Shown: piece after piece, positions 1,936 to 46,810 of the stretch | How positions within the stretch are numbered: position 1 is the stretch's first letter | Layout: every line of letters begins with the position of its first letter | IMG/VR virus record: IMGVR_UViG_3300030098_002885 | Span: 1 to 59,850 of that record | Direction: 5' to 3' (one strand) | Origin: a virus | Length of the DNA: 59,850 bases | Notes under the pieces: model-generated | Database searches by the model: none | Seen by the model: only the letters and a program-made list of their open reading frames with translations | What the model was told of the DNA's origin: nothing | Position numbers and translations under genes: made by a program

Positions 1936-4014
1936 TTAACCTGCTACCTTTTGCCCGTGTTTCTGGCTCTCCGCAATCAAGGTATCAAGAACCCTAGTGG
2001 ACAACTCTGAACCATGAGCGCGGTCAACTGCTACCTTAAACACATGCGACACATCTAACCCTATGCCTACACCAATGGCCTCAACTCCCCACTTCTCTAG
2101 GAGATGTGTAATGGAAGCGCAAACGTGTGACACACCGCCATCAGTTAGCACAATGACCACTTTACGTTCTTCTTCACGCTTCCTGATATGCAACCCAGCC
2201 CATGCAAGGGCCTCTTCTAGAGGGGTCCCCCCATTAGGGGACAGCTTGGATATGAAACCGCAACGGGCCTTCCAGTTCTGATTGAAGTCTTTTAACAGGG
2301 ACCCTCCGACACCCTCTACTCTCATCTCACCCCATTCGTTATTGGTATCGGTTTTACCTTCAACAAGGGTTGCACCCCCACTCGCGCTACCATAAATGTA
2401 ATCGTTATCAGGCTTGCCGTTCCCGTCTACATACACGGCCCTTTCACCATTTGCGAGTTCATACCGCCGTGTTTCTATCTGGGGGAATGATATGAGGTTG
2501 AACGGTACGCTAGCCTCTTCTAGCGCATCACCTATCACCGTTGCGAATTGCTTAACGGCATGAATTTGAGTGGCATGCATAGAAGAAGAGATATCGCACA
2601 GGATAGAAACACAGGTTCTATACCCATCTTTTTTCCAACGCTTATTGAATACCGTTGTTGAGCCACGGCGTAGTGCGGTCAGTTTACGTTGGTCTAAACG
2701 TCCAGCTTCTTGGTTCTTCTTAACCCCATGGCGGTCAGGGTTGGTCAGTAATCGGCCCAACTTATTTTTCGCAACGGCAGTTTGTGACAGCATTTCCTGT
2801 CTGATTTTGTTGACCTGTTTTACCCATCTTTTGTATGTGGGACGGGTAGGCAGTGGTTCCTTGATTAGAAGTATTTTATCAGCGTTGATAATACCTACGT
2901 TGTAATCCTTACCATGCCAGTCTTTTACGTCTGACTGGGTACGGTCCTTAATTTGGTCAACTAGGTCAGTGATGTCACGGCCTGTGTCCTCAGGGATTTG
3001 ATCATCCTCTAATGGGTTGGGCTTGGGGGCATTAGGGTTGCACCCTTCGCCTTCCTTTGTCTTGTCATCACTGGGGTTGTCATCGACAGGCTTATCATCG
3101 ACAGGCTTATCAGGATTGCCCATACGCCCATCATCATCAGGATTGTCATCGACAGGCTTATCAGGATTGCCCGTGCGTCCATTATCATCAGGGTTGTCAT
3201 CGACAGGCTTATCAGGATTGCCCATACGCCAGTCCTCATCATCATCATCATCAGGATTGTCATCGACAGGCGTATCATCAGGATTGTCATCGACAGGCTT
3301 CTCAGGGTTGCCGCGCGGCGGTTCTGGTAATTCCTGTTCACCTACAATATCCCGAAACCAAATAGCAATTTCTAGGATATCTGCCACGCCTGTAGCGGCC
3401 TCAATTTTCTGCACCGTCAGATCAAAAAATGCTTCAGCGGTCATGGTCTCCCCGTCCACTTCAACAGTCACTAGAGAGGCCCCTGTATTGATTTCTGCCT
3501 CAATTTTTGGAAGGCATCCATACAATGAATGGTAGGCTTTTAAGTTCACTAGGTATCCCCAGTTCCTCAAGTCGGTGATGGCAGGGACACCCTTGTTCGC
3601 GCAGTAAACCGTCAACGCCGTCAGGGACTTTTTAGCGTTCCCGAATTTGTGCTTGGCGATTAGCTCACGTTCCTGTCTAGGGTCCTCAAAACAGTTGACC
3701 AGTCTAGATACCTTCTGTGCTACGGCATCTTTCCATACAGCTATATCGGTATACAAGTTATGACCCATTTCATGGATGGCGTACCCATGAAAAATATCCG
3801 CTTCAAAACGCTTTAGCAGTGCAGTTGCTGGCAAAAATGGAAAGGATATTTCAGTGTGCAGTTTCCCTTTCCGATCATAGTTCCAGATAGTGCCAGCGGT
3901 GTTTCCCTTGGCAAACACATCAAGGGTTCCAACATCTACACCAGCATTAGTCAGACTGGTATGAATGGATTTTTGTAAACCGTTGAATAAGTCCTGTGCT
4001 ATTACATCTCTCAT
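1936..4014 (-). CDS. CobT-like protein: metal-site N-domain, Asp/Pro repeat linker, C-terminal VWA
   Basis: 692 residues. The N-terminal part has a zinc-type HEMGH motif (81-85) followed by NCFEDPRQE (107-115), as in phage CobT-like proteins. A linker of about residues 235-340 carries imperfect repeats of GNPDKPVDDNPDD. The C-terminal part is a von Willebrand A domain with the MIDAS motif DISSS (from Asp474) and the strand VVIVLTDGG. Proteins of this build pair with MoxR/CobS-type AAA+ ATPases, and that gene lies directly upstream. In cobaltochelatase the pair works with CobN, which is absent here, so a chaperone or remodelling role is at least as likely as cobalt insertion. Expressed leftward from the promoter near 5.9 kb. 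Confidence 0.85.
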   Translation of the reverse strand: MRDVIAQDLFNGLQKSIHTSLTNAGVDVGTLDVFAKGNTAGTIWNYDRKGKLHTEISFPFLPATALLKRFEADIFHGYAIHEMGHNLYTDIAVWKDAVAQKVSRLVNCFEDPRQERELIAKHKFGNAKKSLTALTVYCANKGVPAITDLRNWGYLVNLKAYHSLYGCLPKIEAEINTGASLVTVEVDGETMTAEAFFDLTVQKIEAATGVADILEIAIWFRDIVGEQELPEPPRGNPEKPVDDNPDDTPVDDNPDDDDDEDWRMGNPDKPVDDNPDDNGRTGNPDKPVDDNPDDDGRMGNPDKPVDDKPVDDNPSDDKTKEGEGCNPNAPKPNPLEDDQIPEDTGRDITDLVDQIKDRTQSDVKDWHGKDYNVGIINADKILLIKEPLPTRPTYKRWVKQVNKIRQEMLSQTAVAKNKLGRLLTNPDRHGVKKNQEAGRLDQRKLTALRRGSTTVFNKRWKKDGYRTCVSILCDISSSMHATQIHAVKQFATVIGDALEEASVPFNLISFPQIETRRYELANGERAVYVDGNGKPDNDYIYGSASGGATLVEGKTDTNNEWGEMRVEGVGGSLLKDFNQNWKARCGFISKLSPNGGTPLEEALAWAGLHIRKREEERKVVIVLTDGGVSHVCASITHLLEKWGVEAIGVGIGLDVSHVFKVAVDRAHGSELSTRVLDTLIAESQKHGQKVAG
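3066..3311 (-). repeat. coding minisatellite in the CobT-like linker
   Basis: Four imperfect in-frame copies of a roughly 51-base unit encoding GNPDKPVDDNPDD plus a short variable tail (DGRM, NGRT, or DDDEDWRM). Copies differ by insertion of whole codons, mostly Asp. The encoded stretch is acidic, Pro-rich and surely unstructured. The nucleotide repeat is strong enough to allow slippage or unequal recombination. Confidence 0.85.
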
Positions 4015-4066
4015 TTTTCGTTTTCCTTTTCTACTCTACTTCACTTGATGCTAAAGGTGCATCGTA

Positions 4067-4092
4067 TGCGGCCCCACTTCTGTGAGACCGCA
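4067..4092 (-). ncRNA. intergenic RNA hairpin with AGAA loop (copy 2)
   Basis: Between the ATPase stop (4106) and the VWA start (4014). As minus-strand RNA it makes an 11-bp GC-rich stem with two G-U pairs and an AGAA tetraloop, the same loop as the hairpin at 1891-1920. There is no U-tract after it. The matching loop and the wobble pairs that work only on this strand argue for a functional RNA element in the operon, such as differential mRNA processing between ATPase and VWA. Confidence 0.55.
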
Positions 4093-4105
4093 CGGCGATA
4101 AACCC

Positions 4106-5626
4106 TCAGGAATTCCAGTCGATAATCCCATCACCGTCAGCGGCAGAATTCGCGTTTACCTCATCTGCGATTTCCTCGCCTGATGGTTCAACGAATTCTT
4201 CACGCCTGATCAGGGCTTCAACTTTTGCCTGATTTACTTGCTCAGAGAACAGGCCCCGTCCTACTTCGTAATCGTCAGGGGTGACGTTCCCTACCATCGT
4301 GACCTCAAAGGCCTCTTCAGCGGTAAACCCGTTTAGCACCGCCACTACAAAGGCCGTGAGGCCTCGCACTGATGGCATTAGGTTGGATGCCTGACCTTCC
4401 AGCGTTGCAGTCCTGAGGACCCTACCCATGGAGACCACTTGCTTTGCGGCGGCAACTGTCACCTTGGTATTTGAAGCAATTATTTTCGCTTCAATATCCG
4501 CTGTAGGGGCCTCAACTTTTACAGTGAAGGAATGTCTATCGGTCAACGAGGTATCCATTACCTTCGTACCGATAAACCGCCCGTCAGGGTCCCCAGTGCC
4601 GTTGGTATTGTCGGCAGTGATGAAAATCACACCGTCTGCAACGGGGACCTTTTCACCTGTTTCGGGAATGGTGATGGAACGGCCTTTACTCTCTAAGACC
4701 TGATTGAAGTAAACGAGGTCATCAGGCGAGGCCCTTGTGATTTCATCCAACAGAATGACCGCCTGAGGTTGGCGAATGGCATTGGTCAGCATACCATCTT
4801 TCCAATAGGTGGACCCGTCAGGCGCGGCCTGATATCCCCCGTTAATCTCCAGCCTAGACATCGTCCCGTCAAAGGTCAGCGCATAGAAGGGCCGTCCCGT
4901 GATGGATGCGAATTGTCTAGCGGCAGAGGTCTTACCGCTCCCAGCAGGGCCATAGAACCAACCCACAAATTTGCCGTGGGTTTGGTATCCCCCCAGCATT
5001 GCGAGAACCTTTGCGACTAATGGGTCCCACTGATAATGTGGGTCAAAGTCGTCAGCATCCCCAGCATCAAATATTTTCACTGGGAAGGCTGGCATGTCTT
5101 TTAACCCGAACAATTCGGGTGCAGATTTGTCTGCCTCTGCGTTCACGGTTTTGACCCGATTAGCAGGGGCCGATGCCGATACCGCTGGAGCGGTCCCGTT
5201 CCCAGCAACTGGAACTTCGACAATTTTCTCCACGACTTTCGGAGTGCGAGAGGCCGTGATCAACTCCGCAATACGGCCTTCCAATTCCTTGAACGGCAGG
5301 GCCATCACTGCCTCTAACTCTGCATCGACTTCAACAGGCTTTTCGGTGATGGTTTCGGGAACGGCCTTAGGGCCTTGTGGGATATCATCCACCGCAACGG
5401 CTGGCATTGCGGATTGCACGGCAGGGGCCATGGCAGGGGCCTTTGTCCCCTTTGGCTTGCCGTAGTCGGCAGGGTTGATACCTACCTCGACTGCTAAGTC
5501 TGTCAGTTGTTGCGCTGACAGAAGGTGAATTTTCACGCCGTCGAATTGCGGCAGGGTTTTGATGGTGTTAGACAGCACCGACTTTAAAGCCGTGCGCTGT
5601 TCGTTGGTGTATGAAAATTGGTTCAC
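4106..5626 (-). CDS. MoxR/CobS-like AAA+ ATPase
   Basis: 506 residues. After an Ala/Pro-rich N-terminal region (1-165) comes an AAA+ module with Walker A GPAGSGKT (226-233), Walker B VILLDE (290-295) and a sensor-1 Asn in FITADN (340). The pattern of the CobS/MoxR group is clear, including the PETGEKVPVADGVIFITA beta-hairpin region. These ATPases form rings that act with a VWA partner, and the VWA gene follows directly. Start chosen at the ATG at 5626, with AAAGGAAAA upstream. Phage copies are often labelled cobS, but the substrate is not fixed by sequence. Confidence 0.88.
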   Translation of the reverse strand: MNQFSYTNEQRTALKSVLSNTIKTLPQFDGVKIHLLSAQQLTDLAVEVGINPADYGKPKGTKAPAMAPAVQSAMPAVAVDDIPQGPKAVPETITEKPVEVDAELEAVMALPFKELEGRIAELITASRTPKVVEKIVEVPVAGNGTAPAVSASAPANRVKTVNAEADKSAPELFGLKDMPAFPVKIFDAGDADDFDPHYQWDPLVAKVLAMLGGYQTHGKFVGWFYGPAGSGKTSAARQFASITGRPFYALTFDGTMSRLEINGGYQAAPDGSTYWKDGMLTNAIRQPQAVILLDEITRASPDDLVYFNQVLESKGRSITIPETGEKVPVADGVIFITADNTNGTGDPDGRFIGTKVMDTSLTDRHSFTVKVEAPTADIEAKIIASNTKVTVAAAKQVVSMGRVLRTATLEGQASNLMPSVRGLTAFVVAVLNGFTAEEAFEVTMVGNVTPDDYEVGRGLFSEQVNQAKVEALIRREEFVEPSGEEIADEVNANSAADGDGIIDWNS

Positions 5627-45459: not shown

Positions 45460-45702
45460 ATGGTATATATCCTAGTCTACTCTTGGCTCACTACATATCC
45501 TTTAGATGCCCATGTAAGAGTGATTGCGGCATTTGAAAGGAAAGAACATTGTGAGGTAATGAGAGAGGAAGTGACACATAAGAACGATCACTATTCGTGT
45601 ATTGCCTCAAGCCTAGAATATAAGCCCATGCTTTCAGAGATAGAGAACTTTCATCTGTTAGCCAAGGACAACAAACATCTAACCTTACCCGTCCCTAAAT
45701 AA
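45460..45702 (+). CDS. small exported two-cysteine protein (family copy 4)
   Basis: 80 residues. A short hydrophobic N-terminus (MVYILVYSWLTTYP) is followed by FERKEHCEV, with the family aromatic-to-Cys spacing, and YSCIASS with the second Cys 16 residues later. It is the last gene of the rightward transcript, and its 3' end overlaps the convergent peptidase gene by 52 bases. Confidence 0.55.
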   Translation: MVYILVYSWLTTYPLDAHVRVIAAFERKEHCEVMREEVTHKNDHYSCIASSLEYKPMLSEIENFHLLAKDNKHLTLPVPK

Positions 45703-46250
45703 TAGCCACTGTCTAGATGAAAATGATCGTGGTGTAGGCGATCACTAATCGGAGATAGAGCTACTCCGAAGTGTAGACACGCCGACCTATGTAACGTAGA
45801 CAGAGGGGTACGGGGGGAGACAGTGTGAACCCTCCCATCATATTGCAATTTATGAATATCAATAGCGTTACCATACGCATGTTCTGATAGCGTGTTATTC
45901 TTCCTGTTCTTACGGCAAGACTTAACACCCATAGTCCATATCTTCTGAAGCTGATTAGCAGAGGACCAGTCTGCCAGATCGTTAGCTAGGTTACAGGTCA
46001 TGGTAAGAGGCTTGTCTATCTTGGTAGCCCCAAGCTGTCGGACTGTGACTGCGTTAGGAGTACGGCACACGCCTCTACCATCTCTAGCTTGAGTGAATTT
46101 AACACCTTTAGCTTTTAAGTCTGAGAGACAGCCTTCAGAGTTTATGGCGTAAAGTTGAGGGCGTAAATGGTCATAGAACTTTGGCCCAAAGGATACGGCC
46201 CCCACTAGGAGGGCCGCACCTACAAAGCATCCAGCTAAGAAGGATTTCAT
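45651..46250 (-). CDS. extensin-like-C family peptidase (second cell-wall enzyme)
   Basis: 199 residues with an N-terminal membrane anchor or signal (FLAGCFVGAALLVGAVSF). The body matches the extensin-like C-terminal family, related to M15 peptidases: CLSDLKAKGVKF, VRQLGATKIDKPLTMTCNLA, SEHAYGNAIDI with His124 and Asp131, and HHDHFHLD with His176 and His178 as further zinc ligands. Cys residues at 41, 62, 86 and 112 fit periplasmic disulfides. It is coupled to hsp20 by TAATG and shares its promoter. It probably cuts peptidoglycan peptides from the periplasmic side. Confidence 0.78.
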   Translation of the reverse strand: MKSFLAGCFVGAALLVGAVSFGPKFYDHLRPQLYAINSEGCLSDLKAKGVKFTQARDGRGVCRTPNAVTVRQLGATKIDKPLTMTCNLANDLADWSSANQLQKIWTMGVKSCRKNRKNNTLSEHAYGNAIDIHKLQYDGRVHTVSPRTPLSTLHRSACLHFGVALSPISDRLHHDHFHLDSGYYLGTGKVRCLLSLANR

Positions 46251-46720
46251 TAGGAGCTTTGGATTTCTATTACGCGAGGTTTCTTCTCCTCTGGCGTATG
46301 TCGATACACTCTAATGTTCAACATCCCATTATTAAGATCGCAATCTTCGACATGAACATCATCGGCTAACTGAAAACTCAAAGTGAATTTTCGTTCCGCT
46401 ATACCTCTGTGAAGTTCGGAATAGGTAGTAGGGTCAGCTTCCTCTTCGTTCCTACGGTCATCGTAGTGCTGATTAGTTTTGATCGTGAGGTTGTTGTCGG
46501 TCTCCGTCACATCAATGTCATCAGAGGAAAACCCTGCTAACGCCACCCTGATAATGTACATGTCAGGATGATCTGCACAGGCATCCACGGCTATGATGTT
46601 ATAAGGGGGGTAACTTTCAGCTTTGACCATCCGCATATTACGAGATAGTTCGTCAAAGATGCGGTCAAAACCAATGGAATAAGGGCGAAAAGAAGGCAAC
46701 GTAAGGGAGAGAGTATTCAT
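46250..46720 (-). CDS. small heat shock protein, Hsp20/alpha-crystallin
   Basis: 156 residues. N-terminal arm with IGFDRIFDELSRNM, then an alpha-crystallin domain (about 40-135) with YIIRVALAGFSSDDIDV, LTIKTN, IAERKFTLSFQLADDV and LNNGMLNIRV, and a C-terminal VIEI tail motif for oligomer contacts. Holds unfolding proteins in a refoldable state. AAGGAG lies 8 bases before the ATG but is paired in a predicted ROSE-like hairpin (46727-46744), so translation is probably temperature-controlled. Closest relatives by pattern are bacterial IbpA-type proteins. Confidence 0.92.
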   Translation of the reverse strand: MNTLSLTLPSFRPYSIGFDRIFDELSRNMRMVKAESYPPYNIIAVDACADHPDMYIIRVALAGFSSDDIDVTETDNNLTIKTNQHYDDRRNEEEADPTTYSELHRGIAERKFTLSFQLADDVHVEDCDLNNGMLNIRVYRHTPEEKKPRVIEIQSS

Positions 46721-46726
46721 CTAAAG

Positions 46727-46775
46727 ACTCCTTGTTAAGCGAGTTGAATGTAAGTGGTCCCGATTGGCAACCACT
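46727..46775 (-). promoter_or_regulatory. ROSE-like RNA thermometer in the hsp20 leader
   Basis: In the minus-strand transcript, ACUCGCUU pairs with AAGGAGU around an AAC loop (46727-46744), leaving one G bulged. This buries the whole Shine-Dalgarno AAGGAG. The bases opposite AGGA are UCGCU, which fits the ROSE rule U(U/C)GCU including the bulged G. A second hairpin with AGUGGU/ACCACU arms (46753-46775) forms the 5' end of the leader. ROSE elements are known upstream of alphaproteobacterial small heat shock genes. Confidence 0.7.
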
Positions 46776-46781
46776 ACTCAG

Positions 46782-46810
46782 AATATAGTCTTACGACTGG
46801 AACAATTCAA
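46782..46810 (-). promoter_or_regulatory. sigma70-like promoter for hsp20 and the extensin-like peptidase
   Basis: On the minus strand TTGAAT (46805-46810) and TATATT (46782-46787) with ideal 17-base spacing, overlapping the end of the HTH gene. The predicted start point falls at the 5' base of the first leader hairpin (46775). The same hexamers form the promoter at 5880-5907, and both have AC before TATATT. Confidence 0.6.

Follow-up and report, generated by a model that had tools for sequence, protein, structure and literature searches.

A ROSE-type leader, probably an RNA thermometer, ahead of a phage Hsp20 gene and its viral relatives

The stretch analysed here, which we call the window, is the whole 59,850-nucleotide virus record IMGVR_UViG_3300030098_002885. 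Its minus strand encodes a small heat-shock protein, Hsp20 (46250..46720, 156 amino acids; PF00011, E 5.6e-14; phrog_432, E 9.6e-35), and we conclude that the leader of this gene is probably an RNA thermometer of the ROSE type, in its short form with two hairpins. A ROSE-like element had been proposed at this place in the first-pass annotation, and the proposal is backed by the motif, the fold, the bulged G that each hairpin has, the covariation and the gene context. Viral Hsp20 genes have the ROSE leader in general, so that it is not peculiar to the window phage. That the window leader responds to temperature we infer by analogy with proven bacterial elements.

Two hairpins in the Hsp20 leader

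The leader (46776-46721, minus strand), which reads 5' to 3' TTGAATTGTTCCAGTCGTAAGACTATATTCTGAGTAGTGGTTGCCAATCGGGACCACTTACATTCAACTCGCTTAACAAGGAGTCTTTAGATG, contains two hairpins; with the Shine-Dalgarno (SD) sequence and the start codon, the ROSE-type element runs over 46715..46776 (-), the extent of the full-length alignment to ROSE_3. Hairpin 1, AGUGGU-U(G)CC-AAUC-GGG-ACCACU (46753..46775, -), is of the YGCC...GGG type and has its own bulged G at 46768, a bulge that the ROSE_3 consensus shares. Hairpin 2, ACUC(G)CUU-AAC-AAGGAGU (46744-46727, -), which we take for the thermosensing one, has seven pairs, one bulged G at 46740 and the loop AAC, and its pairing is conserved in relatives, with compensated changes. 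Within it the SD AAGGAG (46728..46733, -) is paired, as had been predicted, to a strand with a single bulged G, and the anti-SD UCGCU (46742-46738, -) that lies opposite AGGA agrees exactly with the ROSE rule U(U/C)GCU. Three of the features by which ROSE is defined structurally are present: an anti-SD with a bulged G, a further 5' hairpin in a leader of about 60-100 nucleotides and a small heat-shock gene downstream. FourU thermometers likewise mask the SD with a short hairpin ahead of heat-shock genes but set four uridines opposite AGGA, whereas the window has UCGC with the bulged G and so falls outside the FourU definition.

The leader is also recovered by a covariance model, R1, built from 11 relatives with the window left out. 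R1 scores 24.9 bits (E 7e-5) at 46774-46724, the only significant place in the 59,850-base record; the next best place reaches 10.6 bits (E 0.95).

Conservation across viral Hsp20 genes

Searches for Hsp20 gave 39, 80 and 50 viral loci, partly overlapping, together with 505 phage records, of which 463 have Synechococcus, Prochlorococcus or cyanophage in their names. The survey set comprises 99 distinct leaders out of 178 loci, and U[UC]GCU lies between -45 and -8 in 93 of them. Where the motif is placed at most 28 nucleotides upstream of an AGGA SD, it is found in 83/86 Hsp20 genes against 8/126 other genes (Fisher p 3e-45), the controls being non-Hsp20 genes with an AGGA SD from the same DNA; some of the control hits are themselves real ROSE leaders, of dnaK (L020), of a phasin-like gene (L087/L089) and of an Hsp20 gene with an alternative start (L143). 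Every one of the 13 cyanophage isolates added later has the motif, and R1 recognises 12 of them with E values of 0.03 or better. A doubtful member of the survey set, 'Pseudomonas phage Y7' (L054, OQ572409.1, UNVERIFIED), gives 69 bits with ROSE_3 and carries a typical Pseudomonas ibpA element; the record may be bacterial DNA, and we do not count it as evidence from phages.

The cleaner test of the fold is an alignment-free search for hairpin 1 (pattern YGCY...RG(G/A), at least three outer pairs), which is present in 80% of 82 dissimilar leaders, whereas dinucleotide-shuffled versions of this DNA have it in 0.7% of cases. All six stem positions of hairpin 1 show at least three kinds of pair. 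In A5, an alignment of 85 matches made with a model, 97.6% of the cells are paired, 10 of the 14 pairs are changed on both sides and 246 cells are double-changed. Shuffles give 78 such cells, and sliding the 3' partner gives no more than 47. Because the structure guided the fitting of A5, these counts lean towards it. Variation in hairpin 2 is limited by the SD, and changes in the SD are matched by changes in its partner: S-TIM66 has AAGGUGG with CCA(CG)CUU and the Pelagibacter phage HTVC103P has AAGGAU with AU(CG)CUU, both compensated, while leaders of the AGGAGG type have one extra pyrimidine. As judged by this covariation, the fold is shown to be kept under selection in viruses. By itself U[UC]GCU is short, and its occurrence in 8 of the 126 control genes lends something to the idea that a short leader has come to resemble ROSE by chance; the conserved and covarying pattern of over 100 viral leaders refutes that idea, and we give it next to no credence.

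Under strict filters for named isolates, R1 matches 26 of 34 whole phage records, mostly once and at the Hsp20 leader. At E 1e-3 it matches none of 100 Pseudomonadota genomes, and RF02523 has weak matches in 3/75 genomes (strict filters in both cases); because of these filters the genome scans give a hint of specificity and do not prove that such elements are lacking there. Weak R1 matches in G005, Ettore (201662) and G006 (72866) were put aside as probably due to chance. A scan of genome contigs with the Hsp20 found just one partial relative. The hsp20 start annotated in Prochlorococcus phage P-HM1, a GTG, falls within the ROSE leader (L048:487-540); translation more probably begins at the in-frame ATG at 538, which lies behind the SD AGGAG.

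Relation to known thermometers, predicted melting and mechanism

At gathering thresholds, no Rfam family is found in the window. With permissive settings (401 bases), its sole ROSE-family match is RF02523 (ROSE_3), which aligns end to end (1-69) with 23.2 bits (E 0.011); a few viral relatives also align to RF02523 over its full length (L023, 28.9 bits; Melnitz-3, 34.1; P-RSM1, 21.8). The window element thus resembles short ROSE without formally belonging to the Rfam family. The kinship with ROSE that had been suggested is supported, its nearest form being the short two-hairpin leader of Pseudomonas ibpA and not the long rhizobial ROSE, and we judge the element to be a viral variant of that Pseudomonas thermometer. 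The viral elements differ from the Pseudomonas ones in scoring under the Rfam cut-off and in their weaker hairpin 2; many stand directly behind a presumed T4-type late promoter core, and some precede dnaK and phasin-like genes. What the two share is a pair of hairpins, a leader of about 60 nucleotides, a class A small heat-shock gene, U(U/C)GCU with a bulged G against the SD, and a UGCC...GGG hairpin 1 with its bulged G (RF02523; PMC3669281). The Pseudomonas two-hairpin elements are experimentally proven thermometers (PMC3669281).

Other systems are less close. The classical rhizobial ROSE (RF00435) shares the 3' thermosensing motif U(U/C)GCU and its bulged G with the viral leaders but has three to four hairpins where they have only two. 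The Synechocystis hsp17 thermometer likewise occludes the SD in the leader of a small heat-shock gene, but it is a single short stem-loop of 46 nucleotides and not a ROSE element (PMC4166951), so that the thermometer type of the cyanophages differs from that described in cyanobacteria. The lambda cIII leader is also a temperature-dependent fold in a phage mRNA leader; it differs in taking two exclusive conformations, with translation favoured at low temperature (PMC4166951), in belonging to a lysis-lysogeny gene and in having a sequence and fold unrelated to viral ROSE.

Calculated folding supports occlusion of the SD and predicts a gradual opening with no sharp melting, which does not prove switching. 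In a set of 95 leaders the SD is less accessible than in shuffles whatever the temperature; between 10 °C and 50 °C the median open fraction rises from 0.17 to 0.39, compared with 0.37 to 0.49 in the shuffles. The energy of hairpin 2 at 25, 37 and 42 °C is about -5.3, -3.5 and -2.7 kcal/mol in the window, -6.5, -4.7 and -4.0 kcal/mol for the Pseudomonas type by the same calculation, and -3.7, -2.2 and -1.4 kcal/mol for the viral median. Several of these observations weigh against a thermometer of the ROSE type: the RF02523 score of the window lies under the gathering score of 43, its hairpin 2 is weaker than that of Pseudomonas (by the 37 °C values, about -3.5 vs -4.7 kcal/mol), the opening of its SD predicted by RNAfold is modest (about 0.10 at 20 °C to 0.21 at 50 °C), and in some RNAfold windows the SD, still occluded, pairs with early codons and not with UCGCU. 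The full pairing of the SD claimed earlier stands as regards occlusion but not, in every folding window, as regards the partner.

A putative promoter, TTGAAT-17-TATATT (46782..46810, -; consensus scan), ends about 6 nucleotides before hairpin 1. Its position ahead of the hairpin agrees with the sigma70-like promoter of the first-pass annotation, but taken alone the match is no better than chance (1 match vs 1.2 expected in the window). Among relatives, TAAATA is found upstream of or adjacent to hairpin 1 in 57 of the 78 leaders that have this hairpin, and in 48 of those 57 it ends 2-6 nucleotides ahead of it. We take TAAATA to be the T4-type late promoter core, so that in those relatives a late mRNA would begin with hairpin 1; the TTGAAT-17-TATATT of the window occupies the corresponding place. 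A hairpin at the likely 5' end and the shallow predicted melting would also suit a leader whose hairpins merely tune translation or shield the end of the mRNA, with no response to a signal. We consider this very improbable, since plain damping would not call for U[UC]GCU and its bulged G in particular, yet these are kept in 93/99 leaders, and the motif is restricted to heat-shock and phasin-like genes.

We suggest that, in the thermometer, transcription probably starts at hairpin 1, which is stable and would form the mRNA 5' end. The short and weak hairpin 2, as the conserved fold shows, has the SD paired against U(C)GCU with the bulged G, and it would keep ribosomes off at low temperature; warming would melt it and raise translation of the phage Hsp20, as in the proven Pseudomonas elements. 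The overlapping downstream gene for a peptidase-like protein would perhaps also be translated more on warming. In viruses Hsp20 and its leader have been carried along together, with the fold kept under selection, as the covariation shows.

The same fold could instead be chiefly protein-sensing, with phage or host Hsp20 binding its own leader and repressing it until unfolded proteins titrate the Hsp20; the trigger would then be protein aggregation in infection rather than heat, as for E. coli IbpA. Residues are numbered here by the E. coli IbpA sequence as we presume it to run. This numbering agreed with the residues given in PMC10474464, where IbpA is reported to repress its own mRNA through the 5' untranslated region and to need R93. 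An equivalent of R93 is present in 93/97 viral Hsp20 proteins, and position 34 is aromatic in every one of the 97. However, IbpA also requires the basic residues 97/98 (PMC10474464), where the window protein has L and S, and R93 may be conserved for other reasons; we regard a chiefly protein-sensing leader as unlikely. Protein sensing and thermosensing are compatible, not exclusive, and self-repression by Hsp20 is possible as a second layer on top of the thermometer.

Other viral genes and the surroundings of the window element

ROSE-type leaders also stand ahead of viral dnaK, in G003 (L020, 40.5 bits; HSP70, E 7e-252) and G049 (L212, 30.1 bits). In both contigs (L020:982-2943; L212:782-2715, -) dnaK directly precedes hsp20 and both genes have a ROSE-type leader of their own; in L020 the gene row is dnaK, hsp20, clpS; such contigs could represent a phage chaperone cassette under RNA thermometers. 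Further ROSE-type leaders precede phasin-like genes in G002/G026 (34.6 bits), G003 (29.5 bits) and L087/L089 (34.3 bits). These small genes (L206:2015-2312, -; L207:2197-2477, -; L087:1151-1433) encode proteins of 73-80 amino acids with 31-35% mutual identity, from three viral lineages; the proteins fall into no clear Pfam or PHROG family, one touching Phasin_2 at E 0.016, below the cut-off. The dnaK and phasin-like contigs are viral by IMG/VR classification only. An RNA polymerase omega/Rpb6-like gene (L207:1888-2136, -; E 9.5e-5, below the cut-off) follows the phasin-like gene of G003.

Carriers of a ROSE-led Hsp20 are phages of Synechococcus, Prochlorococcus, Pelagibacter, Methylophilales and Agrobacterium, SAR11 phages included. 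With confidence that is about even, we propose that heat-shock genes of ocean and lake viruses have long been equipped with ROSE as a standard part, and that it governs a small phage heat-shock regulon (Hsp20, DnaK, phasin-like) in which temperature is sensed by the phage's own RNA independently of host regulators, in cyanophages as well. Viral ROSE could offer aquatic viruses a concrete and testable way to respond to warming within infection, and it is easily tested because many of the carrier cyanophages are already cultured. The dnaK and phasin-like cases widen ROSE past small heat-shock genes, the pattern suggests that Hsp20 and its thermometer move between cells and viruses as one unit, and the viral covariance model can be used to seek more such elements. 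In the open-access literature searched, a ROSE element carried by a phage is nowhere reported, subscription papers and preprints being outside the scope of the search. Two papers on cyanophage small heat-shock proteins mention neither an RNA thermometer nor the leader, and in PMC8917201 an RNA-thermometer paper appears only in the reference list; the ROSE fold of viral Hsp20 genes appears to have gone unnoticed so far.

Downstream of Hsp20, the window encodes an Extensin-like_C peptidase-like protein (45651..46250, -; PF06904, E 8.8e-25) whose gene overlaps the Hsp20 stop by one base and which is possibly co-translated with Hsp20. The coupled peptidase described in the first-pass annotation is present in the window and in L001 but absent from L002, the nearest full-length relative, and is therefore no constant part of the arrangement. 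L002 has a tyrosine-recombinase-like gene (L002:1318-2487) upstream of its ROSE-Hsp20 gene, where the window has other genes. The best relative listed for the window phage is Roseobacter phage CRP-810 (33% identity), on which basis an alphaproteobacterial host can be offered as a guess only. Elsewhere in the window, at 1936-5626 (-), lie two cobalamin/porphyrin biosynthesis-like genes, for a CobS/CobT-like ATPase and its partner, the first with E 2e-38.
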